Assembly: GCF_945873775.1 (NCBI RefSeq) | Contig: NZ_CAMCEC010000001.1 | Coordinates: forward strand, 186,001 to 250,000 | Origin: an uncultured Treponema sp. | GTDB lineage: Bacteria > Spirochaetota > Spirochaetia > Treponematales > Treponemataceae | Direction: 5' to 3' | DNA length: 64,000 bases | Part shown: positions 1,530 to 16,082 of the stretch, piece after piece | Position numbering within the stretch: position 1 is the first letter of the stretch | Layout of the letters: each line of letters begins with the position of its first letter | Made by a program: the position numbers and the translations under genes | Notes under the pieces: model-generated | The model's database searches: none | Seen by the model: only the letters and a program-made list of their open reading frames with translations | What the model was told of the DNA's origin: nothing

Positions 1530-1870
1530 CAAAACGAAAAATCAAAATGCCTGATGATTATATTCCCATAGACATCTGGCATGAGGCAAAAGACTTTGTT
1601 GTAAATATTGGTGACGATATTACGATTTATAAGTCATTCAAAAATTTTCCAAACTGGAAACCAAGTGAGGAAGCTGACAAGTTTTGTGCCTGGTGGGATT
1701 TTGGACGATTCCGGGATTATCCACATTCTTTGATTCTTCTTTATGAAAAACTCGATGAGATTTATAAAACGATTGGAAGTGATGACGTTATGAATGGATA
1801 TGAACAGCTTATTTTTAAGCTTGTTCAGTTTTACAGAATCTTAAAAGAAAATGGAATGATTGATGACTGA
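1526..1870 (+). CDS. Hypothetical protein, 114 aa, between structural gene and primase
   Basis: Small soluble protein with several Trp and Phe residues (WHEAKDF, NFPNW, CAWWDFGRF) and a helical C-terminal half. The start overlaps the stop of the previous gene in ATGA, and its end overlaps the primase start, so it belongs to the same coupled operon. No motif is recognised. It may be a small phage replication or packaging accessory protein, but nothing in the sequence proves this. Confidence 0.6.
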   Translation: MTKRKIKMPDDYIPIDIWHEAKDFVVNIGDDITIYKSFKNFPNWKPSEEADKFCAWWDFGRFRDYPHSLILLYEKLDEIYKTIGSDDVMNGYEQLIFKLVQFYRILKENGMIDD

Positions 1871-3299
1871 TAAAGAACTTGAGAACATGGCTAGAGAAGC
1901 AGCCGTTGCAATTGGTCGTGATATGAAAACAAATAAGTTTGTTACAGGTGAAATGCAGTTTACAGACCTGACTAACGCAACTTATTTTATTAAGACATAC
2001 GGAAGCATCATAAGATACTGCATTACCTGGAACAAGTTTTTATTCTGGAATGATACCTGCTGGGAAATTGATAACCGCGGCCGTGTTGAAGAACTGATTC
2101 CAATTTTTGTTCATCAGATTTACAGAAGCAGAAGGTATATAGAAGACAGACTGCAGCAGGAATCTTTTGAAAAACACCTCATAAAAAGTGAAAGCTTTAG
2201 AAGACTCCAGGCGATTGCTGGAATTCTTAAAATGAGTAAAGAAATAAAAGTTGAAGACTGGGAACTGGACAGCGACAACTATTTATTTAATGTAGATAAT
2301 TTAACTCTGAATCTTAGAACCGGAAAAGCCCGAGAGCCTAATACAAAACATCTGATTACAAAGAAGAGCAATTTTATTTATGACAAAACTGCAGACTGCC
2401 CTGTGTGGAAAATGTTTCTGATGCAGATTTTTAATAAGGATACTCAGCTGATAAAGTTTATTCAAAAAGCAATGGGCTACACTTTGAGCGGTGATGTAAG
2501 TGAACAGTGTCTTTTTATTTTATGGGGAACAGGTGCTAACGGAAAATCAACTTTCTTAAATGTTCTGCAGGAGCTCTTTGGAGATTACTCTTGTTCGGCT
2601 AGTACAGAAACATTTATGAAAAAGACTTCTGAACAGAGTAACGACCTGGCACGTCTCAAAGGTATGAGACTTGTTACTACAACCGAGGTTGAACAGGGAA
2701 AGCAAATGAGCGAAAGCCTTATAAAACAGATTACCGGTGAAGACGAGCTTACAGCCAGATTCTTGTACGGTGAGTATTTTTCTTTTAAGCCTACATTCAA
2801 AATCTTTATGGCTACAAACCATAAACCAAAAATTCGTGGAGCTGATAACGGAATCTGGAGACGAATTAAAATGATTCCTTTTACTGTAACGATTCCTCCG
2901 GAACAGAGAGATAAGAAACTTATGGAAAAACTGATAGCAGAAAATTCAGGAATCTTAAACTGGCTGATTCAAGGCTATGCAATGTGGAAAAAAGAAGGAC
3001 TTACTGACGAGCCGGATGCAGTACGCGAAGCCAACGAGGAATACAGAATGGATATGGACAGCGTTGGAATGTTTGTTACTGACTGTCTTGAAATTGACGC
3101 AAGCCTAAAATGGCGGCTTCCTACTGCGCTGCTTTATCAGACATATATTAAATGGTGCAACAAAAATAATGAACGTATTATGAGCCAGAAATGGCTTGGC
3201 GGAAGAATGAGCGAGAAAGGATTTAAGCGAGTAATTACCAATGGGCAGAGGCTCTGGTGCGGTCTTTGTGTTAAGGGTGAATGGCTTGCAATGAAATAA
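1863..3299 (+). CDS. Phage/plasmid primase-helicase, P4/D5 type (SF3 helicase C-terminal region)
   Basis: Probable replication helicase of the element, 478 aa. Residues about 10-180 form the D5-N type region. The superfamily 3 helicase core follows: Walker A GTGANGKST near residue 223, then an acidic Walker B-type strand, and a sensor motif ATNHKPKIRG with GIWRR near 317-335, which is the classic phage P4/poxvirus D5 signature. No N-terminal zinc or AEP primase domain is present, so it is the helicase/C-terminal half of such proteins. ATG at 1863 is preferred over the TTG one codon earlier. Overlap with the upstream gene indicates translational coupling. A replication protein beside virion-like genes supports a prophage or satellite origin. 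Confidence 0.88.
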   Translation: MTDKELENMAREAAVAIGRDMKTNKFVTGEMQFTDLTNATYFIKTYGSIIRYCITWNKFLFWNDTCWEIDNRGRVEELIPIFVHQIYRSRRYIEDRLQQESFEKHLIKSESFRRLQAIAGILKMSKEIKVEDWELDSDNYLFNVDNLTLNLRTGKAREPNTKHLITKKSNFIYDKTADCPVWKMFLMQIFNKDTQLIKFIQKAMGYTLSGDVSEQCLFILWGTGANGKSTFLNVLQELFGDYSCSASTETFMKKTSEQSNDLARLKGMRLVTTTEVEQGKQMSESLIKQITGEDELTARFLYGEYFSFKPTFKIFMATNHKPKIRGADNGIWRRIKMIPFTVTIPPEQRDKKLMEKLIAENSGILNWLIQGYAMWKKEGLTDEPDAVREANEEYRMDMDSVGMFVTDCLEIDASLKWRLPTALLYQTYIKWCNKNNERIMSQKWLGGRMSEKGFKRVITNGQRLWCGLCVKGEWLAMK

Positions 3300-3777: not shown

Positions 3778-3808
3778 ATCACGATTTGATAGACCTCTTG
3801 TTTATAAT
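3778..3808 (+). promoter_or_regulatory. WYL-regulon site 1 with -10 box
   Basis: ATCA (3778-3781), a 5-base spacer, then TGATAGACC (3787-3795). A perfect TATAAT lies at 3803-3808, 16 bases from the start of the right arm. No -35 hexamer is visible at the usual distance; the site occupies that place. It controls the DnaB-like ATPase and metallophosphoesterase pair. Confidence 0.75.
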
Positions 3809-3825
3809 AAAAACAGAGGAACAAA

Positions 3826-4728
3826 ATGGATATTGATGAACATTCATATAATTATGAACAATTAGACAAATTATTATATAGGTTTTTATCATCTAGAAAA
3901 AAGTATAAAAATACAGCACCTAATGATTCTCTAATTATATATGATAATAAACAATTATATTTTGAAAAAGGAGAGTTCATAATTTTAGCATCCAGACCTT
4001 CAATTGGAAAAACTGCACTTGCATTAAACTGGGTATATGATTTTGCAGCAAAACAAAATAAACCTGTTGGATTTATTACATCTGGAATACCTGACTCAGA
4101 ATCTTTGATTTTACGTTTAATAACATTAGAGTCAAAAATCAGTCCTGCAAAGTTAAGAACTGGACTCTTGAATGAAAATGATACAGAACTGATAGCAAAT
4201 GCTACTACAAAACTTTGTAATCTTCCTATCTTTCTAAGTGATATTCCAAATGCAAAATTCGAAGATATAGAAACAATTGCCACAGAAATGCTAAATAAAG
4301 AAAAAATAGAAATTCTTTTTATCGATGGTTTTGAGTATTTATATGAAATTGCAGTTTCAAAAAGCTTTTGCAATAATGCGCAATGGGCAGAACAAATGGC
4401 TCCCTATTATGATGAAATCTATTTCATGATGGAAAACTTAAAAACGCTAGCAAATAAATTGCAGATTCCAATTATCTTGCTAGTTCCAATAAAGCAAGAC
4501 ACATTTTGTGACGAGCCAACTATAAAATCTTTTGAAGATAAATTAATTATTCCTCGAACTGCAGATAAAGTAATTTTTTTACATAGAGACAGAGTAAAAG
4601 ATGCTGATAAGTGGCAAACTGCCAAACTTATTGTTGCGAAAAATGAACATGGAACAGGTGGTGATATGTTGATAAGATTTTGTTGCCGAACTGGTGAAAT
4701 TATATATGATGACAAGGATGCAAAATGA
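3826..4728 (+). CDS. DnaB C-domain-like RecA-fold ATPase, 300 aa
   Basis: Resembles only the C-terminal ATPase domain of replicative helicase DnaB: the strand FIILASRPSIGKTALAL (about residues 51-67) is the DnaB-type P-loop, a hydrophobic strand ending in ILFIDGFEYL (about 160-170) is the Walker B region, a later strand IPIILLVPIKQ corresponds to the DnaB glutamine sensor region, and LIVAKNEHGTGGDMLIRF near the end matches the DnaB terminal KNRxGxxG segment. The DnaB N-terminal domain that binds primase is missing; only about 45 residues precede the ATPase. It is preceded by regulatory site 1, and its stop overlaps the next gene (ATGA at 4725), so the two are coupled. It may be an oligomeric DNA-dependent motor or sensor of the cargo system. 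A diverged relative is encoded at 10609-11478. Confidence 0.75.
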   Translation: MDIDEHSYNYEQLDKLLYRFLSSRKKYKNTAPNDSLIIYDNKQLYFEKGEFIILASRPSIGKTALALNWVYDFAAKQNKPVGFITSGIPDSESLILRLITLESKISPAKLRTGLLNENDTELIANATTKLCNLPIFLSDIPNAKFEDIETIATEMLNKEKIEILFIDGFEYLYEIAVSKSFCNNAQWAEQMAPYYDEIYFMMENLKTLANKLQIPIILLVPIKQDTFCDEPTIKSFEDKLIIPRTADKVIFLHRDRVKDADKWQTAKLIVAKNEHGTGGDMLIRFCCRTGEIIYDDKDAK

Positions 4729-5486
4729 TTTATATAACTGGTGACACGCATAATATAACAGATATGTCGAATCTCTCTTCTAGCACTATGAAGCTTTGTT
4801 GCATGGAACAAGGTGTAGATTATAACAAAATAACAAACGTAATTGTTCTTGGCGATTTTGGGTTACCTTGGTGTTCTTGTTCTATAGATTCAGATGGAAT
4901 TCATCCGAAGGATAAAACAGATAAATACCTTCTTGATTGGTATAAAAAGAAACCTTTTAGGATTCTAGCAGTAATGGGGAATCATGATAATTACGATATG
5001 CTCGAAAAATTGCCAAAAGTTCAGATGTTTGATTCTTCAGTTCTTAAAGTAAGTGAAAACATCTTTTATCTTAAAAGAGGCGAAAGTTATAATATTGAAG
5101 GAAAAACTTTCTTAGTACTTGGAGGAGCACTAAGTGATGACAAAGCACATCGTAAAGTTCACGAAAGCTGGTGGCCACAGGAAGAATGGTCTGATGAAGA
5201 AAGATTAAAATGCATAGAAAGAATCAAAAAAGCTGAAGCAAAGTTTGATTATGTTCTTTCCCATACAGGAACTACAAAAGGAATTGCGAGTTTAGATACA
5301 TATTATGAGAATAATGAAAACCTTGCTGAACTTAAAAGAGATACAACTGTAGTTTTCAACGATAAAGTTGAGTCTATGGTTGTCTGTAAAAAATGGTTCT
5401 TTGGACATTGGCATAGCGACTGGGGATATGAAAATTATTCTACAAACAAATATGTTCCATTGTATCGTATGGGAATCCTCCTTTAG
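4725..5486 (+). CDS. Calcineurin-like metallophosphoesterase, 253 aa
   Basis: All metal-binding blocks of the metallophosphoesterase superfamily are visible in order: GDTH (residues 6-9), GDFG in VVLGDFGLPW-type context near 42, GNHD near 86, a lone His in LSHTG near 180, and GHWH near 226. The family hydrolyses phosphomono- or diesters using two metal ions; the substrate here (nucleic acid, nucleotide or protein) is not evident. The start overlaps the stop of the DnaB-like gene, so it probably acts with that ATPase. Phosphoesterase plus ATPase pairs are common in DNA-processing and defence loci. The protein appears complete. Confidence 0.88.
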   Translation: MIYITGDTHNITDMSNLSSSTMKLCCMEQGVDYNKITNVIVLGDFGLPWCSCSIDSDGIHPKDKTDKYLLDWYKKKPFRILAVMGNHDNYDMLEKLPKVQMFDSSVLKVSENIFYLKRGESYNIEGKTFLVLGGALSDDKAHRKVHESWWPQEEWSDEERLKCIERIKKAEAKFDYVLSHTGTTKGIASLDTYYENNENLAELKRDTTVVFNDKVESMVVCKKWFFGHWHSDWGYENYSTNKYVPLYRMGILL

Positions 5487-5574
5487 TGAAACTATAATTC
5501 TTTTCGTTGTTTTATCCTGAGTTCAGTGTTAAAATTGTACTTTGATACAAACATGAAAAATCAGAGGAAAAAAC

Positions 5575-6693
5575 ATGCGTACTAAGAATAAAAATCATGT
5601 AAGCGTTGCCTTGATTATAATCTTTTCCGTAGCATTTTTAATTACATCTGTACTTTTTAAAGTTTATGGAATAACCGGCATTCTTGCTCAGCTTACAGGA
5701 ACTTTACTTGGAACCATTATTACAGCAATTGTTACTTTACTTCTTCTTGGTGTTCAAACAGATAAAGAGTTGGAACATGAAAAAGATTCCGGTATCTTTG
5801 AAAAGAAACAGGAAATCTATCACAATTTCCTGAAAGAACTTGAAGTTATTACTGAAGATGGGAAAATTACGGTTGATAATAATAAGGATGAATTGCAGAG
5901 ATTAATCTATCAGCTTGGATTATTACAGATGCATGCAGATAAAGAAGTTGCTGAAAAGATTACTGCTTATGTTGGCGAAATAATAGGAATTATTACAAAA
6001 AAATCAAATCCAGAGATTAAATCAAAAAAATACGCAAATCTTTCAGAAAAAGTTTTTGCTATTGTTGAATTACTGCGAAATGATTTGTACGGAAATAGCA
6101 CAGGAGTTATTAATCCTGATTACTTCTATATTACTCTAGCACAATCAGGACTCTTTGAGGGAGAAATTAGAAATACAGAAACGATGAAACGACTTCATGA
6201 AAAATGGTGGAATCTGTTCATCGATGAATTAAAACTAAAACGAAATAAATTAGATTATATTTTCTACTGTGGAGATGAATGTGAGGAAACTGATAATACA
6301 AAAGAAGTTGTAGATTATTTCGAAAACCAGAATAATATTATGTTTAGTTTAATTATCAGTAACAAGAATAGTAATCGTATCTGTTTTTATCTGAATTATG
6401 ATTATCAGACAACTCCAGTTTATGGTTTTGAAGTCGAAAGCAAAGACAAAACGGATAATGACAAATATCTGTATGCTCTTCCAGATAGTTTCTCTCGTAA
6501 TGGATTTGGGAATCCGGGAATCGGAGCCAAAAATATTGATTCAAAATACGATATAGATTTCTATGGAAAGAACAAAAACTATTTTGATTTTGCAAAAGCA
6601 AATGAAAATCAGAAGAAAGAAATTGTAGCAGCATTTGTAGATGAGATAAATAACAATATTGAAGAGTTTCTTAAAAATCTAGAAAATAAATAA
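5575..6693 (+). CDS. Membrane-anchored hypothetical protein, 372 aa
   Basis: Two hydrophobic segments at the N-terminus (about residues 10-30 and 38-60) form a hairpin anchor. A charged, mostly helical cytoplasmic region follows (KELEHEKDSGIFEKKQEIYHNFLKEL type heptads), with a mixed C-terminal domain. No catalytic motif is recognised. The arrangement of two TM helices followed by EKKQEIY helices recurs in accessory-region proteins of many gut bacteria, but I know no tested function. It lies 88 bases after the phosphoesterase gene. No copy of the WYL-regulon site is seen in front, so it may be read through from site 1 or have its own promoter. The ribosome site is AGAGGAAA at 5562-5569. Confidence 0.7.
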   Translation: MRTKNKNHVSVALIIIFSVAFLITSVLFKVYGITGILAQLTGTLLGTIITAIVTLLLLGVQTDKELEHEKDSGIFEKKQEIYHNFLKELEVITEDGKITVDNNKDELQRLIYQLGLLQMHADKEVAEKITAYVGEIIGIITKKSNPEIKSKKYANLSEKVFAIVELLRNDLYGNSTGVINPDYFYITLAQSGLFEGEIRNTETMKRLHEKWWNLFIDELKLKRNKLDYIFYCGDECEETDNTKEVVDYFENQNNIMFSLIISNKNSNRICFYLNYDYQTTPVYGFEVESKDKTDNDKYLYALPDSFSRNGFGNPGIGAKNIDSKYDIDFYGKNKNYFDFAKANENQKKEIVAAFVDEINNNIEEFLKNLENK

Positions 6694-6701
6694 TTTACTA
6701 C

Positions 6702-6732
6702 ATCAAGATTTGATAGACCTGCTGTGTATAAT
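6702..6732 (+). promoter_or_regulatory. WYL-regulon site 2 with -10 box
   Basis: ATCA (6702-6705), N5, TGATAGACC (6711-6719), then TATAAT at 6727-6732, again exactly 16 bases from the right arm start. It lies in front of the zinc-ribbon genes. Confidence 0.75.
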
Positions 6733-6766
6733 ATAAGTAACTAATTGCCAATAGGAGGATTTAGAT

Positions 6767-6967
6767 ATGGCTTACGGAAAACCAATACCAAGTAATCAAC
6801 ATGCAAAGTTTATATGCACAAAGTGTGGAAAACAATGGTCTCCAGGTTCTTATGCAACTGGCGGTAGCTTACCAAAAGGAACTCACGCACCATTGATTCC
6901 ATCACCAACAGCTGGTGGCAAATGTCCAGATACTTCTTCTGGAAATCATGTTTGGGAACAAATGTAA
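6767..6967 (+). CDS. Small zinc-ribbon-like protein, 66 aa
   Basis: Contains CTKCGKQW near residue 17 and a lone CPDTSSGNHVW near 51, a CxxC plus Cys/His arrangement typical of a small treble-clef or ribbon zinc site. The remainder is Gly/Pro/Ser rich. A strong AGGAGG at 6753-6758 supports the start. It is the first gene behind regulatory site 2. The function is unknown; nucleic-acid or protein binding is the usual role of such folds. Confidence 0.65.
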   Translation: MAYGKPIPSNQHAKFICTKCGKQWSPGSYATGGSLPKGTHAPLIPSPTAGGKCPDTSSGNHVWEQM

Positions 6968-6970
6968 TAG

Positions 6971-7008
6971 AAACAGGGCTCAGGTAAGTAGTTATCTGAG
7001 TCCTGTTT
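6971..7008 (+). terminator. Intergenic hairpin, attenuator or partial terminator
   Basis: AAACAGGGCTCAG (6971-6983) pairs with CTGAGTCCTGTTT (6996-7008), 13 pairs with one G-T wobble and a 12-base loop. No T-tract follows, so it may tune expression between the two zinc-binding genes or stabilise a processed end rather than terminate fully. Confidence 0.5.
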
Positions 7009-7028
7009 ATTTAGAAGTAGGTCTAATT

Positions 7029-7280
7029 ATGTCAAATTTTTATTGTGAATATTGTGGCAGAAAGTTTATATCAGTCAGAGGGCTAACAGCAGAACACTGT
7101 TATAGACATCCAAGTGGCGCAAATAAAGGTTTTCATAAGCTTTATGAAGGCAGTGAAAAATCACAATATATTTGCAAATATTGTGGAACAAAAACAGGTT
7201 CCATAGCAACATTAACAAGTAGCCATTGTGGACGGCATCCAAATGGAGCATATAAAGGTTTTCACACACCTGCACTGTAA
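7029..7280 (+). CDS. Tandem zinc-finger protein, 83 aa (two repeats)
   Basis: Two internal repeats of about 36 residues: CEYCGRKF...LTAEHCYRHPSG and CKYCGTK...LTSSHCGRHPNG, each ending GxxKGFHK or GFHT. Each has CxxC plus a CxRH pair, so each likely binds one zinc ion. The ATG at 7029 is chosen because the upstream extension overlaps the previous gene and does not resemble the repeat family. The repeats suggest a DNA- or RNA-binding or protein-bridging adaptor. Small proteins with this finger occur in accessory regions of gut bacteria; no tested role is known to me. Confidence 0.75.
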   Translation: MSNFYCEYCGRKFISVRGLTAEHCYRHPSGANKGFHKLYEGSEKSQYICKYCGTKTGSIATLTSSHCGRHPNGAYKGFHTPAL

Positions 7281-7298
7281 AACCAAGGAGTAACTGAA

Positions 7299-8042
7299 AT
7301 GAGTAAAGAATCATTAGAAAAATTAAATCAAACATTATTAGAGCATTTTGAAGAAACTGGTATTAAAAATGCATTTTATTATGCGCCTGCTGATGATCAT
7401 TATTGGAATAAAAGTGAGACTGCAAAACGTATTGCATTTTGTAATCTTGAACCATACAAGAAAGATGAAAAAACACCATTAAATGGCTATGAATTGCTTT
7501 CAAAAGAAATTCTTTATGACAATTGGTTTTATACAAATACTCCTGGTAGAATTTTTTTATTTAATTATTTCCTAAGTAAGGCTCTATATAATGATGAAGA
7601 AAATACTCCTGAAGAATTAGGTGATATATTTAGAAAAATCAAAAAATCTGAAGAAATAGATAACTTACTTTGGGAAGAATTTGACAACTCATTATATTTT
7701 AATTTCCGCTATACTTGTAATGAAACAGGCTCTACAAATGCAGATATACTTTATATTGTTAATCAATATAAGGATCCATTTTATTGTCAGTTTTATCGTG
7801 ACTTTGTAAAAGAAGCTCAAATTGATGTTTTAGTTATTGGAAGCAAGGATGGGTGTAATTTAATAAATAAGATTTATCCAGAATTACATCTAGAATATAA
7901 AGGTAAACCAGTAAAATTTCAAAATACGATTTTTATCTCAACGGAACATCCTTCAAGAATTAGTTACGATGATATGCTAAATAATATTGAAATGATATAC
8001 GAGGCTGTATATCACAATAATTATATTACTATCACAGACTGA
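7299..8042 (+). CDS. Hypothetical protein with uracil-DNA-glycosylase-like motifs, 247 aa
   Basis: The segment RIAFCNLEPY (residues 44-53) resembles the UDG-superfamily motif 1 loop (GxxPY type), a later strand IDVLVIGSKDG resembles the central beta strand, and STEHPSRIS with HPS at 217-219 resembles UDG motif 2 (HPSP). Spacing and the hydrophobic pattern are compatible with the UDG fold. Motif 1 lacks the usual Gly and catalytic Asp/Asn placement, so enzymatic uracil excision is uncertain; a DNA-binding or sensor role is equally possible. Ribosome site AAGGAG at 7284-7289. Its stop lies inside the next regulatory site (8030-8048). The assignment is inference from motifs. Confidence 0.5.
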   Translation: MSKESLEKLNQTLLEHFEETGIKNAFYYAPADDHYWNKSETAKRIAFCNLEPYKKDEKTPLNGYELLSKEILYDNWFYTNTPGRIFLFNYFLSKALYNDEENTPEELGDIFRKIKKSEEIDNLLWEEFDNSLYFNFRYTCNETGSTNADILYIVNQYKDPFYCQFYRDFVKEAQIDVLVIGSKDGCNLINKIYPELHLEYKGKPVKFQNTIFISTEHPSRISYDDMLNNIEMIYEAVYHNNYITITD

Positions 8043-8062
8043 TAGACCTCTTGTGCTATTCT
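8030..8062 (+). promoter_or_regulatory. WYL-regulon site 3 with -10 box
   Basis: TATCA (8030-8034), N5, TGATAGACC (8040-8048), and a weak -10 CTATTC/TATTCT at 8056-8062. It overlaps the stop codon of the preceding gene (8040-8042), so the site is kept despite coding constraints. Confidence 0.7.
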
Positions 8063-8080
8063 GTAAACACGAGGTAACAA

Positions 8081-8644
8081 ATGGAATATTTTGCAATTGA
8101 TTTTGAAACCGCTAATGATTATCAGAATAGCGCATGCTCGGTTGGTGTTGTCCGTTTTGTTGATGGAGAAGAAAATGATTCTGTTTATTCTCTGATCAAA
8201 CCGGCTAAAATGTATTTTAGACCAGATTTTATAGATATTCATGGAATCAGCTATGGCGATGTTCGTCATAGTCCACAGTTTCCTGAAGTCTGGCAGACAA
8301 TTATTGAACCTTTCATAAAAAAATCAGATAGCGAAAACATATATTTTATAGCACACAACGCTCAATTTGATATGGGCGTAATCCGCGGATGCTGTGAATA
8401 TTTTAGGGTGCCTATTCCAAAAATAAATTACGCCTGTACGCTCCAGATTGCACGAAAAGCCTGGAAAGAATTAAAATGTCATAAACTAACTTATCTGGCT
8501 GAACAATTTGGCATTGAATACGATGCTCATAATGCTCTTGCAGACTCCCAAACTTGTGGCAAAATTTTTTCTTTAGCTGCAGAAAAACTAAACTGTACTA
8601 CACAAGACCTTTTTCTTACTAAAGGTTTCTGTAAAATTTTATAA
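8081..8644 (+). CDS. DEDDh 3'-5' exonuclease (DnaQ-like), 187 aa
   Basis: The four acidic blocks of the DEDDh family are visible: IDFETA near residue 6 (Exo I), IAHNAQFDMGV near 88 (Exo II), and HNALADSQTCG near 152 with the His-x4-Asp of Exo III. These bind two metal ions and remove 3' nucleotides from DNA or RNA. It is a stand-alone domain, shorter than polymerase proofreading subunits with extra modules; about 20 residues follow the fold. It has its own regulatory site 3, so it is expressed with the cargo rather than with host replication genes. Ribosome site CGAGGT at 8070-8075. Confidence 0.88.
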   Translation: MEYFAIDFETANDYQNSACSVGVVRFVDGEENDSVYSLIKPAKMYFRPDFIDIHGISYGDVRHSPQFPEVWQTIIEPFIKKSDSENIYFIAHNAQFDMGVIRGCCEYFRVPIPKINYACTLQIARKAWKELKCHKLTYLAEQFGIEYDAHNALADSQTCGKIFSLAAEKLNCTTQDLFLTKGFCKIL

Positions 8645-8659
8645 AATCTTTTTCATAAC

Positions 8660-8690
8660 CTCACGATATGATAGACCAGCCATGTTAATC
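8660..8690 (+). promoter_or_regulatory. WYL-regulon site 4 with -10 box
   Basis: Left arm CTCA (8660-8663) is degenerate, then N5 and TGATAGACC (8669-8677). GTTAAT/TTAATC near 8685 is in the -10 position, 16 bases from the right arm. It drives the secreted and membrane protein operon that ends with the second DnaB-like ATPase. Confidence 0.65.
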
Positions 8691-8721
8691 TATTTTCAAC
8701 AAATAAATCAGGAGGCTTCAC

Positions 8722-9195
8722 ATGAAGAAGTATATTACAATTTTGTTGGCGCTTTGCATTGTTTCGCTTGGATTTTCTCAGACTGTTCTTACACCTAAGG
8801 AAAAGGTTTATTCACCTCAGTTTCAGAAACTTATGAAATATAAACTTGCAGAAAAAAATGGATCTGCCTATGTGCATTCTTCCGGCAAGATTTCAAAACA
8901 TGTAGAAAACGATGCTGAAGGCATTCTTGTTTATGAAACTGACTTTGGTGGTTTTAGAGGGCCAAATGGATTATGGAAAAAAGGAACTATTCTTGCTGGA
9001 TATAAAGGTAATGAAGTTTACACTTCAATTTTATTTATTGAAACTGCTCCAGATTTTCTAGAAATTTTAATATACAACACTCCTACATATAGAGAATATG
9101 GTTTTCTTACAGACACCGAGTATGATATTGATACAATTATTGAAAATTTCATCGAAGGAAAAACTGAAATGAAATGGGTAATGGATACTTTATAA
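8722..9195 (+). CDS. Exported hypothetical protein, 157 aa
   Basis: Starts with a clean signal peptide: MKK, a hydrophobic run of about 13 residues, and a probable cleavage after LGFSQ near residue 20, with no lipobox Cys. The mature part is small and mixed alpha/beta. Ribosome site CAGGAGG at 8710-8716 is strong. It is the first gene after regulatory site 4, so a periplasmic or secreted product is part of the same regulon. No family is recognised. Confidence 0.7.
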   Translation: MKKYITILLALCIVSLGFSQTVLTPKEKVYSPQFQKLMKYKLAEKNGSAYVHSSGKISKHVENDAEGILVYETDFGGFRGPNGLWKKGTILAGYKGNEVYTSILFIETAPDFLEILIYNTPTYREYGFLTDTEYDIDTIIENFIEGKTEMKWVMDTL

Positions 9196-9222
9196 ATAAT
9201 TAAAAACAAGAGGAGGACTTTT

Positions 9223-10005
9223 ATGAACAAATTTTTGAAAATGATAAGAGATTGTTATCCTATTGTTGTTTTGATGCTAGGTATATTTTTTATCTTTATT
9301 CCGCTGCCTATGTTTGTTATAGAAGTCCTTCTAGTTTTAGATTATATGCTTGCTATATTTTTATTCTGGTTAAAAACAAATTGTGGAAATGAAAAATTAT
9401 TATTCTATGCAAGATTTGTAATTAGTTTCTGTCTTCTTACCTGTGGAATTATGATTTCAACACTCAGAACATTTTTAACTATAAAAGATATTGAATCCCA
9501 ACTTCCGATTGTTAGAGTTATAGGCACTTGGATTTGCAGGGAAAACATAGTTTGTGGATTTTTTACTACACTTTTATTATGCGGAGCTCTTATACTTTTT
9601 TGTAAGTTATTTCTTTCAAGGCATGCCAAAATTGGTTCATGTTATTGTTTTGATGCAATGAATACAAAACTCTTCAATATTGATAATTTGTATAATATTA
9701 ATCTAATTACTGAAGAAGAAGCAAACTGTAGAAAAGAGGCTGTACGCAAAAATGTAGATTATTTTTCTAGCATGGATGGGGCTATTCAATATTATACAGG
9801 AACAATAGTAGCTTTTATGGCTATGTATGTCATTGAAATTGTAGGTGGATTTTCATTAGGAATGATTGAACTAAAACTGACCTGGCAGGAAGCCTTATGG
9901 CAGTATGTAATGCTTTCAACTGGTTATCTGATTCTTTTTACTATACCAATCTTTATAGTTGGATTAACTCTTAGAATAGCAAAGGAGCAGTTTTTAAATG
10001 ACTAA
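9223..10005 (+). CDS. Integral membrane protein, 260 aa
   Basis: About six hydrophobic segments: two close together near residues 12-48, one near 64-84, one near 108-130, and two at about 190-212 and 228-250. Between the fourth and fifth lies a soluble loop that includes ITEEEANCRKEAVRKNVDY and a DG/Gly segment. That layout (helix pairs around a cytoplasmic loop) partly resembles FHIPEP/FlhA-type loop proteins, where a related EEAxxR stretch occurs, but I do not assign it. AGGAGG at 9211-9216 sets the start. Its end overlaps the next gene by 8 bases. Confidence 0.65.
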   Translation: MNKFLKMIRDCYPIVVLMLGIFFIFIPLPMFVIEVLLVLDYMLAIFLFWLKTNCGNEKLLFYARFVISFCLLTCGIMISTLRTFLTIKDIESQLPIVRVIGTWICRENIVCGFFTTLLLCGALILFCKLFLSRHAKIGSCYCFDAMNTKLFNIDNLYNINLITEEEANCRKEAVRKNVDYFSSMDGAIQYYTGTIVAFMAMYVIEIVGGFSLGMIELKLTWQEALWQYVMLSTGYLILFTIPIFIVGLTLRIAKEQFLND

Positions 10006-10597
10006 TGAAATTGTAAACAAATTTATTCAATTCTTAGAAAACGAACAAATTAAACATCCAGAATGGCGAAAAGGTCAAACTATTGTAAATTGTTCGTATG
10101 TTTACTGTTATCATTTAGTAAGAAATCTTATAAATACAAAAGTTGATTGCTTTTATGAAGATTCAAAAATAGATACTTTTATAAAAGCATTTAAAGAAAA
10201 TCTAAAATTTTCTGAACCGTTTGTAGGAATTTTCTGGTTCTATAATGGTCTTGTAATGTTTTCTCATGCAGTTTCATTAACAGAAGGTCTTATTTATGGA
10301 GATGCAATTACAGGTGTAAAAGATCATGCAGATTACTGGGAAGAATTATCAAAAGAACAGCTTTCATTCTTACCAGAATCTTTAAGGCAAGAATATTTTT
10401 CTATTCCACGAGGACGTGTCGTTTACCATAAAGACACAGATAAGTTTCATATATTGCATGGTAGTAATATTAAGAAAAAAGATTTACAGCAAGTTAGAAA
10501 ATTGTTCTGTATACCAAAAGAAAAATCAGTTTTTGAAATTGATACTCATTATTGCGAATATACATCGGAAGAATGGAATTCTTTAATTTCGTATTAG
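9998..10597 (+). CDS. Hypothetical protein, 199 aa
   Basis: Soluble protein with no signal peptide. The C-terminal third (PRGRVVYHKDTDKFHILHG followed by a helix and FEIDTHY) looks like a small beta-hairpin plus helix module that I have seen at the end of proteins of unknown function, but I cannot name it. It overlaps the membrane protein gene, and the second DnaB-like gene starts 11 bases after its stop, so the three are co-translated or tightly co-expressed. AAGGAG at 9982-9987 is the ribosome site. Confidence 0.65.
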   Translation: MTNEIVNKFIQFLENEQIKHPEWRKGQTIVNCSYVYCYHLVRNLINTKVDCFYEDSKIDTFIKAFKENLKFSEPFVGIFWFYNGLVMFSHAVSLTEGLIYGDAITGVKDHADYWEELSKEQLSFLPESLRQEYFSIPRGRVVYHKDTDKFHILHGSNIKKKDLQQVRKLFCIPKEKSVFEIDTHYCEYTSEEWNSLISY

Positions 10598-10608
10598 AGA
10601 GGAAATAT

Positions 10609-11478
10609 ATGAATGCTATATGTTGCATAAATGAACTTCTGACGCAATTTATTGATGACTTATCTAACAGAAATGTGTTTAACCAGACTGATTCTATAAC
10701 AGTGAATGAAAAACTGGCTTTTCGCAAAGATAGTTTAAATATATTAGGAAGTCATACTGGAAAAACTAACTTCTCACTTTCATTAGTTCGTGAACTTTCA
10801 ATAAACAAGAATGTTCCTGTAGGTTTATTTACATGTGGAGAAAACAATAAAAAGCAAATAGTTAGGAGATTTATTTCACAAGAAGCTAGAGTTAATTACA
10901 GCAAAATAGCCAATGGTCATTTACAGCAACAAGAAAAACAACGAATAAATGATTGTATGGAAACTATATATAAATGTCCATTTTTTGTGAATGATGAGGT
11001 TCTTTCATTTAATAAATTGAAAGAATATATAAAAACTATGGTTTTAGAAAACAATGTACAATTCATTATTGTGGATGACTTTTATAATTTATCTGACATT
11101 TTAGATTATGCCTTTTTTTGGGAATGCAAAACTTCTTATGAAACAAATGATAATTACCGTAATGCAGTAGCAAAACTTCTGAATTCAATAAATAATCTTG
11201 CAGAAAAATTTAATATCCCAATTCTTCTAACAATGAATATAAGTCGTTCCTTTGGAGAGCCTACAATGCGTTGTTTTAAGGAATTATCAAGTTTAATTAA
11301 AGAAAAATCTGACATGATAATCTTTTTATACAAAGAAAAAGATTATCTCGAAGAAACCGCAGCTGTTGATTATTACATTATAATTGAAAAAAATAATTCT
11401 GGTAGAAAAGAAAGAACTCGCTATATATATGAAGTACCATACTTAAGATATGATTTTGATTCAGTGTTGGAAAACTGA
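10609..11478 (+). CDS. Second, diverged DnaB-C-like ATPase, 289 aa
   Basis: Same architecture as the 3826-4728 product: a short N-terminal region, a P-loop-like strand (LNILGSHTGKTN, residues 43-54), then VPVGLFTCGE, matching PVGFITSGI in the first protein, a Walker B-type strand FIIVDDFYNL, IPILLTMNISR, and a terminal IIEKNNSGRKERTR that corresponds to the DnaB KNRxG segment. The P-loop is shorter than in DnaB and lacks the Pro-Ser, so ATP hydrolysis may be weakened. ATG 10609 is chosen because GAGAGGAAA precedes it; the longer frame overlaps the previous gene. The two ATPases probably arose from one ancestor and may form a hetero-oligomer; that is inference. Confidence 0.65.
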   Translation: MNAICCINELLTQFIDDLSNRNVFNQTDSITVNEKLAFRKDSLNILGSHTGKTNFSLSLVRELSINKNVPVGLFTCGENNKKQIVRRFISQEARVNYSKIANGHLQQQEKQRINDCMETIYKCPFFVNDEVLSFNKLKEYIKTMVLENNVQFIIVDDFYNLSDILDYAFFWECKTSYETNDNYRNAVAKLLNSINNLAEKFNIPILLTMNISRSFGEPTMRCFKELSSLIKEKSDMIIFLYKEKDYLEETAAVDYYIIIEKNNSGRKERTRYIYEVPYLRYDFDSVLEN

Positions 11479-11570
11479 CATAGGGCTATAAGACATATTT
11501 GTTTTTAATAAAAAATTAAAAAATAAAATAGCATTTGATTTTTTTATAATTAAAATTTTTATTCTTTCCA

Positions 11571-11602
11571 TATCAGCATATGATAGACCAGATGTGTTAT
11601 TA
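11571..11602 (+). promoter_or_regulatory. WYL-regulon site 5 with -10 box
   Basis: TATCA (11571-11575), N5 GCATA, TGATAGACC (11581-11589). A -10-like TTATTA begins at 11597, 16 bases from the right arm start. It stands in the 158-base gap before the AAA+ gene. Confidence 0.7.
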
Positions 11603-11637
11603 ATGTATTTATAATAATCAATAATCGAGGTTGTTTT

Positions 11638-13305
11638 ATGAAGGATTTTACTACGAAAGAAACAATAGTCAGATGGAATATTTCAAAGGCAATGTCTTGC
11701 GTGTGTGACTCTCTTAATAAATCTAAACTTAAACCAAAATGTACACAGAAATATAAAAACTCAATGGAAAATCTCAAAGAATTGTATAATCTATCGCAAG
11801 TACAAGTCTGGATTATAAGTCTAACTTGTAGTCATTATGTTGAACGAGAAGACAGTTCTACCTTACGTAGTTTGGCAAATAACATTGATGTATCTGCTAT
11901 GTCAATTATGACCTGGAAAAAGGAGATAGATAATCTTATTGAAAAAGGTTTTCTTGAATTATACGGAACAGAAGGGGATTTCATACCTGTAAGAGAATTA
12001 AAAGATTCTCTTTATACGAATACAGTTTTTACACCACAACCCAAACATGAACTGAATGAAATCGATTTTCTAAATACGTTCTCAGAGCGTTATGAAAACA
12101 GAAGAAGTTTGGGTATATCTGATTACACAAATCAACGAGAATTAGCCAGATATGAAATACAGCATCAAACTCTTCCAATGATTCAGCGTTTAATAAAAGA
12201 AATAGAGGATTGCAATAACCGATTTATCCTTTATGATGTTGCAAATGATGTTCTAAAAGGAGGTGATTCAAGTCTAAATGAAACACTCTCAGATTTGTTC
12301 GATGGTGAAACACGTTATTTAGTTGCAACAGAAATGATGGAGGAAGAGCACATATTATTACAGAAGGGCCTTATTGAATTCTGTAAAAAAGGTAATCTGT
12401 CTGATGCATGTATCACTCTCTCTGATAAAGGTCGAAAACTTGTTCTTGGTGAAAAAGCCTTTCTGTTCGAGGACTCAATCAATGAGAAAAATCTGATTAA
12501 AAAAGACTACATCAAAGAAAAAATACTCTTCTATAGTGAAGAAAACCAGAAAGAAATCGACCGACTCAAAAATGCCCTGAAGGAAGATAAATTAAAACAA
12601 ATACAAAAGAGATTAATGGATGATGGTCTGCCTGTAGGAATTGCAGTCTTGCTTTACGGTGCTCCAGGAACAGGAAAGACGGAATCTGTAATGCAAATTG
12701 CTAAAGAAACAGGACGAGATATTGTTCACGTAGATATAAGCGAGGCAAAGTCTGCCTGGTTCGGTGAAAGCGAAAAGCGTATCAAAAAGATTTTTATCAA
12801 CTATAAGAATGCCTGCGAGATTGCAGAAAGGAAAAATGAGAAAATACCAATTCTTTTATTCAATGAAGCTGATGCCATTATTTCAAAACGCAAGAACGAT
12901 ACTTCTGGAAATTGTGCGCAAACCGAAAATGCAATTCAAAACATACTCTTGGAAGAACTTGAAAATGTTAAAGGTATATTTATAGCAACAACAAATCTAG
13001 TTTCGAACCTGGATCCAGCCTTTGAACGACGCTTTTTATTCAAAATTAAGTTTGAAAATCCATCGACAGAAGCAAAGACTTTAATCTGGATGAATAAACT
13101 TTCCTGGATAGAAGAACAGGATGCAAAAATATTTGCAAAAACCTACGATTTTTCTGGTGGTCAGATAGATAACATTGTACGAAAAATTGCAATGAATGAA
13201 ATAATTACAGGCGAACGTCCGGAAATCTCAGAAATTCACGAAATGTGTAAATCGGAAAAAATAGAAACTCCCGAATGTGCAAAACACATTGGATTTGAAT
13301 TTTAA
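11638..13305 (+). CDS. AAA+ ATPase with N-terminal winged-helix-like region, 555 aa
   Basis: Residues about 60-125 read as a helix-turn-helix-like region (SQVQVWIISLT..., RSLANNIDVSAMSI), the middle (to about 330) is a helical adaptor, and the C-terminal third is an AAA+ module: Walker A GAPGTGKTES near 341, pore or loop segment AWFGESEKRIKKIF, Walker B LLFNEADAI near 405 with Asn in place of the first Asp, sensor 1 ATTNL, and arginine finger ERRFLFK. Proteins of this Asn-Glu type are a recognised subgroup of bacterial AAA family ATPases of unclear function, related in sequence to FtsH/p97-type domains. No protease domain is attached. Regulatory site 5 precedes it, so it belongs to the cargo regulon. 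It could be an unfoldase or remodeler. Confidence 0.8.
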   Translation: MKDFTTKETIVRWNISKAMSCVCDSLNKSKLKPKCTQKYKNSMENLKELYNLSQVQVWIISLTCSHYVEREDSSTLRSLANNIDVSAMSIMTWKKEIDNLIEKGFLELYGTEGDFIPVRELKDSLYTNTVFTPQPKHELNEIDFLNTFSERYENRRSLGISDYTNQRELARYEIQHQTLPMIQRLIKEIEDCNNRFILYDVANDVLKGGDSSLNETLSDLFDGETRYLVATEMMEEEHILLQKGLIEFCKKGNLSDACITLSDKGRKLVLGEKAFLFEDSINEKNLIKKDYIKEKILFYSEENQKEIDRLKNALKEDKLKQIQKRLMDDGLPVGIAVLLYGAPGTGKTESVMQIAKETGRDIVHVDISEAKSAWFGESEKRIKKIFINYKNACEIAERKNEKIPILLFNEADAIISKRKNDTSGNCAQTENAIQNILLEELENVKGIFIATTNLVSNLDPAFERRFLFKIKFENPSTEAKTLIWMNKLSWIEEQDAKIFAKTYDFSGGQIDNIVRKIAMNEIITGERPEISEIHEMCKSEKIETPECAKHIGFEF

Positions 13306-13310
13306 ACATA

Positions 13311-13347
13311 GGTCTATCACTATATGATAGATCTATAGTATTATAAT
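13311..13347 (+). promoter_or_regulatory. WYL-regulon site 6: full palindrome and -10, autoregulatory
   Basis: GGTCTATCA (13311-13319), N5, TGATAGATC (13325-13333) form a nearly perfect 9-bp inverted repeat, the most complete copy in the window. TATAAT follows at 13342-13347. It sits directly in front of the WYL regulator gene, the usual position of an autoregulatory operator. Confidence 0.8.
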
Positions 13348-13382
13348 ATATATGATTAAGTTTGAAATCAGGAGGAATACTT

Positions 13383-14378
13383 ATGGCTACGGAAAAAAGA
13401 CATATCGATAATCATTTAATGCTGGAGAGACTCTCAAAGATTCACGCAAAAATCAAATCGGGGTGTTATCCTAATTCACAGCAGCTGGCTTTTGATAACG
13501 AAGTATCATTACCTACAATAAGCAGAGATATTCAATTTCTAAGAGACCGTTTTGGTGCAGATATTCAGTATGATGCTGCACAAAGAGGATATTATTATGC
13601 CTCAGATTTTGGCATGCCTTTGAATATGATTTCCACTAAAGACATTATTTCACTTTCTCTTGCGAAACAGCTTTTATCGCAATATGAAGGAAGTCCAATT
13701 TTTAATGAGATTTCAAATATTATTGATTTTCTTTCTGATTCACAGGGGATTGGAAAAGCAGATTTCCTAAAAAGAGTTGCAATGCCACCACTTCCAAAAG
13801 TTTTAGTAAATGAACTTGTCTGGAAAACGGTAATGGAATGTTTGCAGAGAAATACTATTTTGAAGTTTGATTATAATGGACGATGGAATACCTCAACTAC
13901 ACACAGAATGCTTCGACCTTATCAAGTACTTTTACAGGATGGAATGTATTTTGTCTTTGGTTATGACGAAAATGCTGATGATTGCAAAGGAGGAGAGAGA
14001 TTATTCAATCTTTCCCGAATGAAAAATCTGGAAAATACAGGACGTTCTTTTGAATTACCAGAAAATTTTGAATTTGCTTCACGCTGTGGCGGAGGAAGAT
14101 TTGGAGCTTTTAAGGAAGCAAAAAAAGTTCACTATGAAATTGATTTTTATGATGATGCACGACAATTTGTAAAAGACTGTGTATGGGCAGATGATCAGGA
14201 ATTTTCTGAAATAGAAGAAGAACATACAACTACAATAAAATTTACGTCTTCTCAATCTACAAAGGTTCTTGAATGGGTTCTTGCACAGGGTGTAAATGCA
14301 AGACCTATAGCCCCAGCTGAATTTGTAGAAAGATGGAGAAATGAAATAAGAGGATTAGCTAAAGCGGCTGGTGTTTGA
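13383..14378 (+). CDS. WYL-domain transcriptional regulator, 331 aa
   Basis: N-terminal winged helix-turn-helix of the DeoR/HTH_11 kind (residues about 8-65: LERLSKIHAKIK..., SLPTISRDIQFLRDRFG, then the wing with RGYYY), followed by a central WYL-fold region (about 145-225: ILKFDYNGRW, RPYQVLL, MYFVFGYD, RLFNLSRM) and a C-terminal WCX-like region. Such proteins sense nucleic-acid or nucleotide ligands in known cases (BrxR/CapW, PafBC, DriD) and often control phage-defence loci. ATG 13383 is chosen for AGGAGG at 13370-13375. The gene is preceded by the full palindrome at 13311. It probably binds all six sites seen in the cargo; whether it represses or activates is not shown. Confidence 0.88.
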   Translation: MATEKRHIDNHLMLERLSKIHAKIKSGCYPNSQQLAFDNEVSLPTISRDIQFLRDRFGADIQYDAAQRGYYYASDFGMPLNMISTKDIISLSLAKQLLSQYEGSPIFNEISNIIDFLSDSQGIGKADFLKRVAMPPLPKVLVNELVWKTVMECLQRNTILKFDYNGRWNTSTTHRMLRPYQVLLQDGMYFVFGYDENADDCKGGERLFNLSRMKNLENTGRSFELPENFEFASRCGGGRFGAFKEAKKVHYEIDFYDDARQFVKDCVWADDQEFSEIEEEHTTTIKFTSSQSTKVLEWVLAQGVNARPIAPAEFVERWRNEIRGLAKAAGV

Positions 14379-14423
14379 TTTTTTTTGCTTTTCCCCCGTG
14401 CCCCCGATAGGCTTCGCCTTTTA

Positions 14424-14690
14424 TGCGTTGCCAAGAATAAATATCAGAAAGCAGTCCTTGCGGTGGATTGAAAATAATGCGTTGTTTGCAACGCGTTAAA
14501 AAGCGTATGCGTTGCAAAAGCGTTGTTGTGTTTGAGTTTGTTTGACTTTGCTTGAAATATTTTTGAGTGGTTTTGATTTGCCTTTATTTTTTAAATTTCT
14601 TTAGCAACGCTTTACTAAAGAAAAAAGATAAATATTAATAAGAGTATAGATATATAATCTAAAAATACGGATATAAACAACTATGCGTTG
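14424..14690. repeat. Cluster of TGCGTTG / CAACGC repeats, iteron- or arm-site-like
   Basis: TGCGTTG occurs at 14424, 14478, 14508 and 14684, with a shorter GCGTTG at 14520. The reverse form GCAACGC occurs at 14488 and 14604. One pair forms the hairpin GCGTTG-N4-CAACGC at 14479-14494. Repeats of this kind near an element end could bind an integrase, excisionase or replication initiator. No Rep gene is next to them. Confidence 0.5.
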
Positions 14691-14778
14691 TTTTGATTGA
14701 ACGTTATCAGATTAAAACTTTTTGCAAGTTTTTCAAGACTGCTGCGCGCGCTCCCCCCGCGAAATTAAAAATCATCGC

Positions 14779-14798
14779 GTCGCCGCGACAGCGGCGAC
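14779..14798. repeat. Perfect GC-rich hairpin
   Basis: GTCGCCGC and GCGGCGAC are exact reverse complements around GACA. No T-tract follows. Confidence 0.6.
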
Positions 14799-14823
14799 AT
14801 CAGGCAGAATCAGTTCGGAGTGA

Positions 14824-15146
14824 AGACTGCTTTTCAAACTAAAGCGGTTGCGAAGCATCCGCAACTTTTGAAAGCTGTCTGAACGGAGCTTTCGGTGAAT
14901 TGATTGGCGAACGGAAATCACGTTGTCCGCCGAAGGCGAACTGTACGAGACATTTTAATTTTGGAAGAGGAACTCGGAAGAAGCAGTCTTGCTTCAAACT
15001 CAAGGGCGCTAAGCGGCCATAACTTTTGGCAAGTCTGCTTCTGGAGCTGGAAGAATCCTCGGCCCACTGAGCGGCGGGAGCACAAGGACGTGCGACCAGA
15101 GCGACCTGTGTAAGAGGCATATTCATTTTGGAAGAGAAACTCAACG
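14824..15146. repeat. Two tandem diverged units of about 160 bp, each beginning with a long imperfect hairpin
   Basis: Unit 1 (14824-14980) and unit 2 (14981-15146) align along their length: both start with a 57-60 base imperfect hairpin (14824-14880; 14981-15040), share TTCAAACT and AACTTTTG in the two arms, and end with TTTTGGAAGAG followed by AACTC. In unit 2 AAGCAGTCTTGC pairs with GCAAGTCTGCTT with one mismatch. Arm changes are partly compensatory, so the structure rather than the sequence seems conserved. They resemble mobile palindromic repeats. Confidence 0.55.
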
Positions 15147-15154
15147 TGGTAAGG

Positions 15155-15178
15155 GGCGGCAACACGGACGTTGCCGCC
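15155..15178. repeat. Perfect 9-bp GC-rich hairpin
   Basis: GGCGGCAAC and GTTGCCGCC surround a 6-base loop. A second hairpin with AGGGG/CCCCT follows near 15195-15210. Confidence 0.6.
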
Positions 15179-15710
15179 TTGCCGATTGAGTGCAGGGGCT
15201 TGTCCCCTGTGCGATTGAGGCAACCATTTTTCCCACACAAAGATAGTTCCCAAAAAAAAGCCGCCATTGTAAGACCAACTGAGCATCTTAAAACGGTGGG
15301 ACAGCTGCAATGCTGAGCAAAAGGTTTCCCCCTTAATCCCCCCGAGAGCGGTATATAGCATTCTATATTTTTTGGAAGGGGGTTGTGGGGGGGTGCCCCG
15401 CGGCAGGGGGGAAGGGGGAAAACTTTTGCGTGCCCACCGTTTTAAGTTGCGAAACCCGCGGACTGCACTTTATTTTTTCACGACCAGTTTACAGCGCGAG
15501 GAAGAGATTTGGCGGCTTCTACAAAAAGAGTGCTTACTGCAACGATGGGCTCACCTGCGGAAACAGGCAGATGCACAAAGCGGAAGGTGTGGCAGATGCT
15601 TTGCTTCTTCGCTTTTCTTCTGCCACTCCTGGAGCGACTGCAGCTGACTGTGCTTGTATTGCTTCTTGCGCCGCTTTCACAAAGGCCACCTTGCGAGCCC
15701 GCTAGTAAAT

Positions 15711-15775
15711 GCAAACAGTGTGTGAACGAATGGAGTGAAACGAAGTGAAGCGGAATGAGAGAACACTCTGTTTGC
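15711..15775. repeat. Third long imperfect hairpin
   Basis: GCAAACAG at 15711-15718 pairs with CTGTTTGC at 15768-15775, and the adjoining bases pair imperfectly for about 17 positions. The loop holds short GGAGTGAA / GAAGTGAA / GGAATGA repeats. Similar in size to the hairpins at 14824 and 14981 but different in sequence. Confidence 0.5.
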
Positions 15776-16036
15776 TACCTTTTTGGGAAAGAGCGTTTAC
15801 TGGAAACAAGAAAAATGTAGAGAGCGGAAGCGGTACGAAGTACGGCTGGAGCGAACGGCAATTAACGAACAGTATTTGGAATAGCGAATTGGACAGTGAA
15901 TTGGATAGTAAACCCATACTAATGGGTGATACTCAAAACCATTCAGTTTGACTAAGACCAAATAATACATTAAGATACAAGTACTTAATTCGTAAACGAT
16001 AGGCAGAGTTATTTTTTATGAGCTACACGCTTAAAA

Positions 16037-16078
16037 CTTTTAAGGCGTGGGTCTCGTGTTCGAATCACGAGTAGCTCA
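16037..16078 (+). tRNA. 3' half of tRNA-Lys(UUU), attachment-site remnant (attR)
   Basis: Reads in order as anticodon loop CTTTTAA (anticodon TTT), anticodon-stem 3' strand GGCGT, variable loop GGGTC, T-arm TCGTG-TTCGAAT-CACGA, acceptor GTAGCTC and discriminator A; CCA is not encoded. The matching D-arm is absent. Immediately left, GAGCTAC (16020-16026) could pair with the acceptor strand, and ACGC-TTAAAA (16027-16036) is an inverted, one-base-shorter copy of TTTTAAGGCGT, as expected of inverted integrase core sites centred on an anticodon loop. It is therefore a truncated tRNA, not a functional gene, unless a D-armless tRNA is made. Confidence 0.7.
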
Positions 16079-16082
16079 GTAG

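Follow-up and report, generated by a model that had tools for sequence, protein, structure and literature searches.

The operator-promoter array and its cargo

The DNA analysed here, termed the window, is a stretch of 64,000 nucleotides from an uncultured Treponema sp. (positions 186,001-250,000 of the forward strand of contig NZ_CAMCEC010000001.1, assembly GCF_945873775.1). Between 3826 and 14378 it carries 13 genes, 12 of them cargo genes and the last encoding a WYL-domain regulator (13383-14378); an initial annotation made from the sequence alone had counted 14. The genes, which like the other window features located below lie on the forward strand, are interspersed with six copies of an operator-promoter, whose operator core reads TATCA-N5-TGATAG across the genus.

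All six copies were found where they had originally been placed. Operator-promoter 1 (3778-3808; ATCA-N5-TGATAGACC, with a TATAAT -10 box at 3803-3808) drives the genes from 3826 to 6693, and operator-promoter 2 (6702-6732; -10 TATAAT at 6727-6732) those from 6767 to 8042. Operator-promoter 3 (8030-8062; TATCACAGACTGATAGACC, -10 TATTCT at 8057-8062) contains a recombination breakpoint at 8040. Operator-promoter 4 (8660-8691) drives 8722-11478; the left arm, given earlier as ATCA or TATCA at every cargo site, is here degenerate (CCTCA). Operator-promoter 5 (11571-11603) precedes the gene for an AAA+ ATPase, and operator-promoter 6 (13311-13347; GGTCTATCA-N5-TGATAGATC, -10 TATAAT at 13342-13347) precedes the WYL gene itself and would therefore be autoregulatory. 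The latter had been described as a full 9-base pair (bp) palindrome, and its arms match at eight of nine positions. In all six copies the operator fills the place of the -35 box and the -10 box begins 16-17 nucleotides past the first T of TGATAG, as had been noted, with two of the boxes being weak (TAATCT at 8686-8691 and TATTAA at 11598-11603).

The sites are highly specific to islands of this kind. The pattern TNA-N5-TGATAGACC has exactly six matches in the 2.59-Mb genome, all inside 9.6 kb of the window (five operators and the reverse strand of the palindrome), and a reversed-pattern control has none. When the operator is searched for together with its -10 box, the same 2.59 Mb yields 13 matches (control, 0), of which seven lie in the window array (two of these being the reverse strands of palindromic sites), four in another WYL island, on contig 2, one within a prophage gene and one elsewhere. 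Bar two matches, the motif is thus confined to WYL islands, and the random genomic scatter that would have undermined the initial proposal of a regulon is not seen. The second island encodes a paralogue of the WYL regulator (54% identical) and has its own cluster of diverged operators.

The cargo is heterogeneous. Behind the first operator lie a 300-residue DnaB_C-like ATPase that lacks the DnaB N-terminal domain (3826-4728; Pfam DnaB_C, 9e-36), a 253-residue calcineurin-like metallophosphoesterase that recurs as cargo elsewhere (4725-5486; Pfam, 4e-10) and an open reading frame for a 372-residue protein with N-terminal membrane segments and no Pfam family match (5575-6693). The second unit encodes a 66-residue zinc-ribbon-like protein (6767-6967; weak Pfam match, 0.008), an 83-residue double C2H2-like zinc finger (7029-7280; Pfam) and a 247-residue product of an open reading frame that matches no Pfam family (7299-8042), and is followed by operator 3 and, behind it, a 187-residue DEDDh 3'-5' exonuclease of the DnaQ type (8081-8644; RNase_T, 2e-19). 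The fourth operator precedes an open reading frame for a 157-residue exported protein, whose signal peptide was judged by eye and which has a relative in locus L047 (8722-9195), a 260-residue homologue of the FlhA (FHIPEP) transmembrane domain without the cytoplasmic domain (9223-10005; Pfam FHIPEP, 3e-28; FlhA/LcrD structures, 6e-20), a 199-residue protein of a family termed u199, recurrent at 12 loci (9998-10597), for which a fold match was sought in the PDB and none found, and a second DnaB_C-like ATPase of 289 residues (10609-11478; Pfam DnaB_C, 3e-29). The AAA+ protein (11638-13305; 555 residues) has an IetA/TRIP13-like ATPase domain (Pfam AAA, 4e-25; PADLOC IetA, 3e-26). The free-standing FlhA transmembrane domain recurs as cargo in 16 loci; its target could be the flagellar export gate, or it could itself serve as a membrane channel. 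In keeping with the earlier view that the cargo resembles no known system, PADLOC recognises no complete catalogued defence system among the window genes, its models matching single proteins only, mainly the IetA-like AAA+ protein, the DEDDh exonuclease and the WYL protein.

The WYL regulator

The regulator belongs to the class of transcription factors with a winged helix-turn-helix (wHTH), a WYL and a WCX-like domain (Pfam WYL, 3e-9; WCX, 8e-4 and just below the cut-off). A sequence-profile search of the PDB finds PafBC, DriD and CapW, with PafBC the best match. The predicted structure (mean predicted local distance difference test score 83) is nearest to DriD (Foldseek E 4e-15), with structural Z scores of 18.8 for DriD over 310 aligned residues, 13.4 for BrxR, 13.1 for PafC and 12.3 for CapW. 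The root-mean-square deviation of the DriD alignment is large, reflecting domains that are rotated relative to each other, and the two proteins share only about 13-16% sequence identity.

The PafB residues required for binding of single-stranded DNA (ssDNA) have been defined (PMC11804915). According to our own reading of the alignment, the ssDNA-contacting R181, R208 and R214 of PafB correspond to R175, R206 and R212 of the window protein, and Y196 to F192; R175 is invariant across 24 homologues, and PafB R211 is not conserved.

A second type of WYL protein, 33-35% identical, is found with the same operator at several loci (L053, L055, L086, L087, L094-L096), and in L053 and L055 it lies close to the orthologue. 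By analogy with PafBC, it is possible that this second type is a heterodimer partner. In a further group of WYL proteins, of 44-54% identity, there are often no more than about 6-8 nucleotides between the -10 box and the start codon (L044, L061, L071, L074-L077, L082, L083, L092, L100, L101), so that the regulator mRNA probably lacks a leader; the window WYL gene differs from this group in having a Shine-Dalgarno sequence.

Distribution of the regulon in Treponema

Many Treponema genomes encode WYL orthologues; the regulon is genuine and extends far beyond the single window. The pattern TATCAN5TGATAGN{9,12}TANNNT was found in 80 of 196 genomes, against a total of eight hits for the reversed control across all 196. 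The mean number of operator-promoters is 3.75 in genomes that encode a close WYL orthologue (E 1e-80 or better), compared with 0.23 in genomes without any WYL match, and at least three sites are present in 27/44 of the former and 0/48 of the latter (Mann-Whitney p about 1e-11 for site number, an optimistic value given that the genomes are related). The site stands in the promoter of 28 WYL genes. Near WYL genes, the operator precedes 17/17 DEDDh, 9/9 DnaB_C, 15/20 AAA+ and 11/13 u199 genes, the background frequency being 35% of genes. To avoid the circularity of loci chosen by WYL, a cargo-centred search was made with the cargo proteins alone as queries; this placed the operator upstream of 10 of 12 AAA+ homologues (at least 55% identity; reversed control, 0) and of 20 of 29 DEDDh homologues (reversed control, 2). 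The same gene set is accordingly found beside the motif and co-inherited with it in many Treponema genomes. These findings, together with the site in the WYL promoter, bear out the idea of one WYL-linked regulon. An unusually large version occurs on contig 3 of genome G015 (L066-L069), where about 15 operator-promoters extend over 170 kb and the cargo includes AddAB-like, DnaB-like, PLD and u199 genes. A search of the open literature found no description of such a regulon in Treponema (subscription papers lay outside its scope).

Promoter geometry and the direction of control

Among 231 distinct operator sites, the T of TGATAG is followed at +16/+17 by the best -10 hexamer in 43%, against 6% expected by chance, and 64 of the 130 sites with a -10 box at these positions carry the TG of an extended -10 element. 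Over the same 231 sites the -35 box is no better than in shuffled sequence (a match of 2.76 out of 6 versus 3.04). Between loci the spacer is random in sequence (27% identity) but its length is kept. Conservation of the core and of the -10 spacing alongside random spacers led to the rejection of an alternative, a mobile repeat devoid of promoter function. The centre of the inverted repeat falls near -32, and all six window operators lie upstream of the -10 box.

This is the geometry of the DriD and PafBC activators, whose sites cover the -35/-26 region and keep a fixed distance to the -10 box (PMC12340889; PMC11804915), and here too a good -35 box is lacking. The sites of the repressors CapW and BrxR, on the other hand, overlap or follow the -10 box (PMC9122588; PMC9122601), and none of the window operators does so. 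The BrxR/CapW analogy drawn in the initial annotation is therefore not supported as regards mechanism, as the site replaces the -35 box. Given this geometry and a predicted structure nearest to DriD, a DriD-like activator is favoured over a repressor, a preference that we hold with some confidence: promoters without a -35 box, often with an extended -10, imply that the bound WYL protein most likely activates. The weak -10 boxes of two of the six window promoters fit the same assignment. By analogy with DriD and PafBC, ssDNA is a plausible and perhaps probable signal for the protein, a suggestion that we would put at about evens.

A number of observations weigh against an ssDNA-responsive WYL activator. 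Most WYL domains share the ssDNA-contact residues; some loci with the same operator carry the different WYL protein of 33-35% identity; and LexA is encoded by the host genome and by 55 of 59 genomes of the genus. The last observation also led to the idea of a substitute for an absent SOS system being dropped. The three bases 3' of TGATAG are more alike within islands (49% identity) than between them (31%; p 0.0005). The correlation between operator flank and helix-turn-helix sequence is significant but no better than that for the rest of the WYL protein; it therefore shows common descent only and does not set cognate recognition apart from shared ancestry. Extended -10 promoters can also function without a -35 box, so that a repressor covering the region could be accommodated, and the perfect TATAAT of the WYL promoter fits a repressor just as well.

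The strongest competitor is therefore the same regulon operating with opposite sign, in which a BrxR/CapW-like repressor would cover the -35 region and be released on binding a ligand during infection. This is possible, although we consider it appreciably less probable than activation. Repression is the role known for most WYL proteins encoded next to defence genes (PMC9122588; PMC9122601), the promoter of the WYL gene carries the site, and an ssDNA-bound CapW from R. leguminosarum is among the PDB matches. Set against these points are the closer structural match to DriD and the position of the site over the -35 region, at a spacing that is fixed genus-wide despite drift of the spacer sequence.

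Prophage-like context, transfer and module exchange

To the left of the array lie integrase, excisionase, terminase, portal and capsid genes, and a D5-like primase/helicase gene of the prophage (1863-3299; phrog_1829, 5e-129) stands upstream. An intact tRNA-Lys gene is also found to the left of the array (contig 1, 171254-171328), and a 17-bp piece of it recurs in the window: the right attachment (att)-like repeat, CTTTTAAGGCGTGGGTC, is located within a tRNA-Lys-like 3' fragment (16037-16053) and is identical to the copy at 171286-171302 of contig 1 in the intact tRNA-Lys. The tRNA-Lys, the phage genes and the 17-bp repeat identify the array as distal cargo within a prophage-like element about 30.8 kb long, which combines an integrase, phage structural genes and an att repeat in a tRNA gene as expected of prophages and integrative elements. 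No empty integration site was found, the flanking genes not being adjacent in the relatives searched. The tRNA-Lys-like sequence (16018-16080) apparently lacks the D arm, has a changed T stem and is not called by ARAGORN; between it and the WYL gene is a locally GC-rich tract of about 1.5 kb without clear genes (14400-15950).

The array has moved between species by recent horizontal transfer. On a contig of another species (L007, which is G111:C213) it is 97.5% identical over 6372 bp, whereas the core genes that adjoin the window array are only 70-71% identical to those of the G111 genome, and the similarity stops at 14407, 29 bp past the WYL gene. Within the array a module has been swapped: window positions 7015-8039, which hold the zinc finger and 247-residue genes, are replaced in L007/G111 by a gene for a 230-residue protein, and strong identity returns exactly at the TGATAGACC of operator 3. 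The 230-residue product looks, by eye, like a member of the uracil-DNA glycosylase superfamily; a similar recurrent cargo protein has no Pfam match. Over all islands, 30 of 57 intergenic ends of similar blocks lie near an operator, against 18.2 expected (z 3.5, with ends that are not fully independent). The initial annotation had noticed neither the prophage-like setting nor the recent transfer, the exchange of modules at operators or the FlhA-like cargo protein.

The phage genes raise the question of whether the cargo consists of prophage fitness genes that are switched on at induction, with the WYL protein a phage-encoded timing switch that has no part in defence or repair. The position of the array in an element that encodes an integrase, a terminase and portal and capsid proteins is consistent with this, as is the resemblance of the DnaB-like and DnaQ-like proteins to phage replication proteins. 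However, no phage structural genes occur among the scanned cargo families of other islands with the same operator, and the WYL protein has almost no trace in 50,697 phage genomes, with only two weak matches. In viral contigs u199 gave one weak match, and a scan with TATCAN5TGATAGACC returned 120 stretches, of which all but one of those listed are single matches, taken as chance. Together with the cargo of the related islands, described below, this makes the proposal unlikely.

Function and significance of the regulon

Beneath the same promoter in related islands are GmrSD pairs, ToxN/AbiQ, an AddAB-like pair of nuclease-helicases (PD-(D/E)XK and UvrD), PD-(D/E)XK proteins of the PADLOC candidate family PDC-S26, PLD nucleases and RhuM-Fic proteins. 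On account of this defence-type cargo, a purpose in defence or DNA repair is likely. The earlier designation as a candidate defence regulon thus gains from the related islands, but not from the 12 cargo genes of the window, which match no complete system and for which a defence function would follow by extension.

A third alternative, that the operators belong to another regulator (a host factor or phage repressor) and that the WYL gene is just one more target, could appeal to the fact that we infer binding by the WYL protein, to the more distant second WYL type with the same operator and to sites on contigs that showed no WYL gene (L072, L088, L089), but is very improbable, since site number tracks the WYL orthologue, the site precedes 28 WYL genes, no other gene family is as constant in the loci (most of which, admittedly, were chosen by WYL) and the WYL-less contigs are fragments of incomplete genomes.

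The explanation that best accommodates these results, and which on balance we think probable, is that a mobile, modular regulon has spread through the genus Treponema and that the window contains one copy of it. The WYL protein (13383-14378), DriD-like and acting as a homodimer, would bind an inverted repeat of 15-23 bp whose centre coincides with the -35 position, both at each cargo promoter and at the promoter of its own gene, and would hold RNA polymerase on promoters that lack a -35 box and often have an extended -10. The trigger may be ssDNA arising from DNA damage or phage replication, upon which the activated protein would turn on nucleases, ATPases, membrane proteins and other proteins jointly, and new genes would be recruited when they insert downstream of an operator-promoter copy. 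A more ambitious version can be offered only tentatively: a WYL activator regulon, triggered by ssDNA and present throughout the genus, in which every transcription unit for immunity or repair has its own operator-promoter copy, genes are recruited and swapped by promoter recombination, and the free-standing FlhA domain and the DnaB-like ATPases are new effectors. Collectively, the observations point to a stress or antiviral response of rumen-type Treponema that had not been described before.

In defence islands, WYL regulators are known to switch a single operon locally. A promoter module that is repeated before many unrelated genes across a genus, and moves with them, would explain how mobile defence sets stay under common control. 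It would also allow new defence or repair genes, such as u199, the FlhA-like gene and the AddAB-like pair, to be found through their promoter alone, and because the geometry is fixed, the choice between activator and repressor can be put to a direct test.

Comparison with known systems

WYL-controlled islands are already known; what appears to be new is a mobile array in which every unit has the same operator-promoter of fixed geometry, an arrangement not found in the literature searched. The closest parallel is the regulon of DriD, the ssDNA-activated WYL activator of Caulobacter crescentus, which shares with it a wHTH-WYL-WCX protein, a pseudo-palindromic site that covers the -35 region and keeps a constant distance to the -10 box, a poor -35, and several separate promoters, one of which serves an exonuclease gene, recJ in the case of DriD (PMC12340889). 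However, DriD targets scattered chromosomal genes, whereas here operators and regulator travel as a mobile array, and activation of the window protein by ssDNA is suggested by analogy. PafBC of mycobacteria, the best profile match in the PDB, likewise consists of WYL proteins that act at a -26 motif by sigma adaptation in the DNA-damage response, but it is a heterodimer of which one subunit contacts promoter DNA, in place of the inverted repeat and single WYL protein of this array. Finally, BrxR and CapW, the WYL repressors of BREX and CBASS islands, have in common with it an autoregulatory inverted repeat in defence-type islands, the BrxR repeat also having a 5-bp spacer, and differ in that they repress, have sites that overlap or follow the -10 box, are structurally less similar to the window protein than is DriD, and are served by one or two sites per island rather than six.

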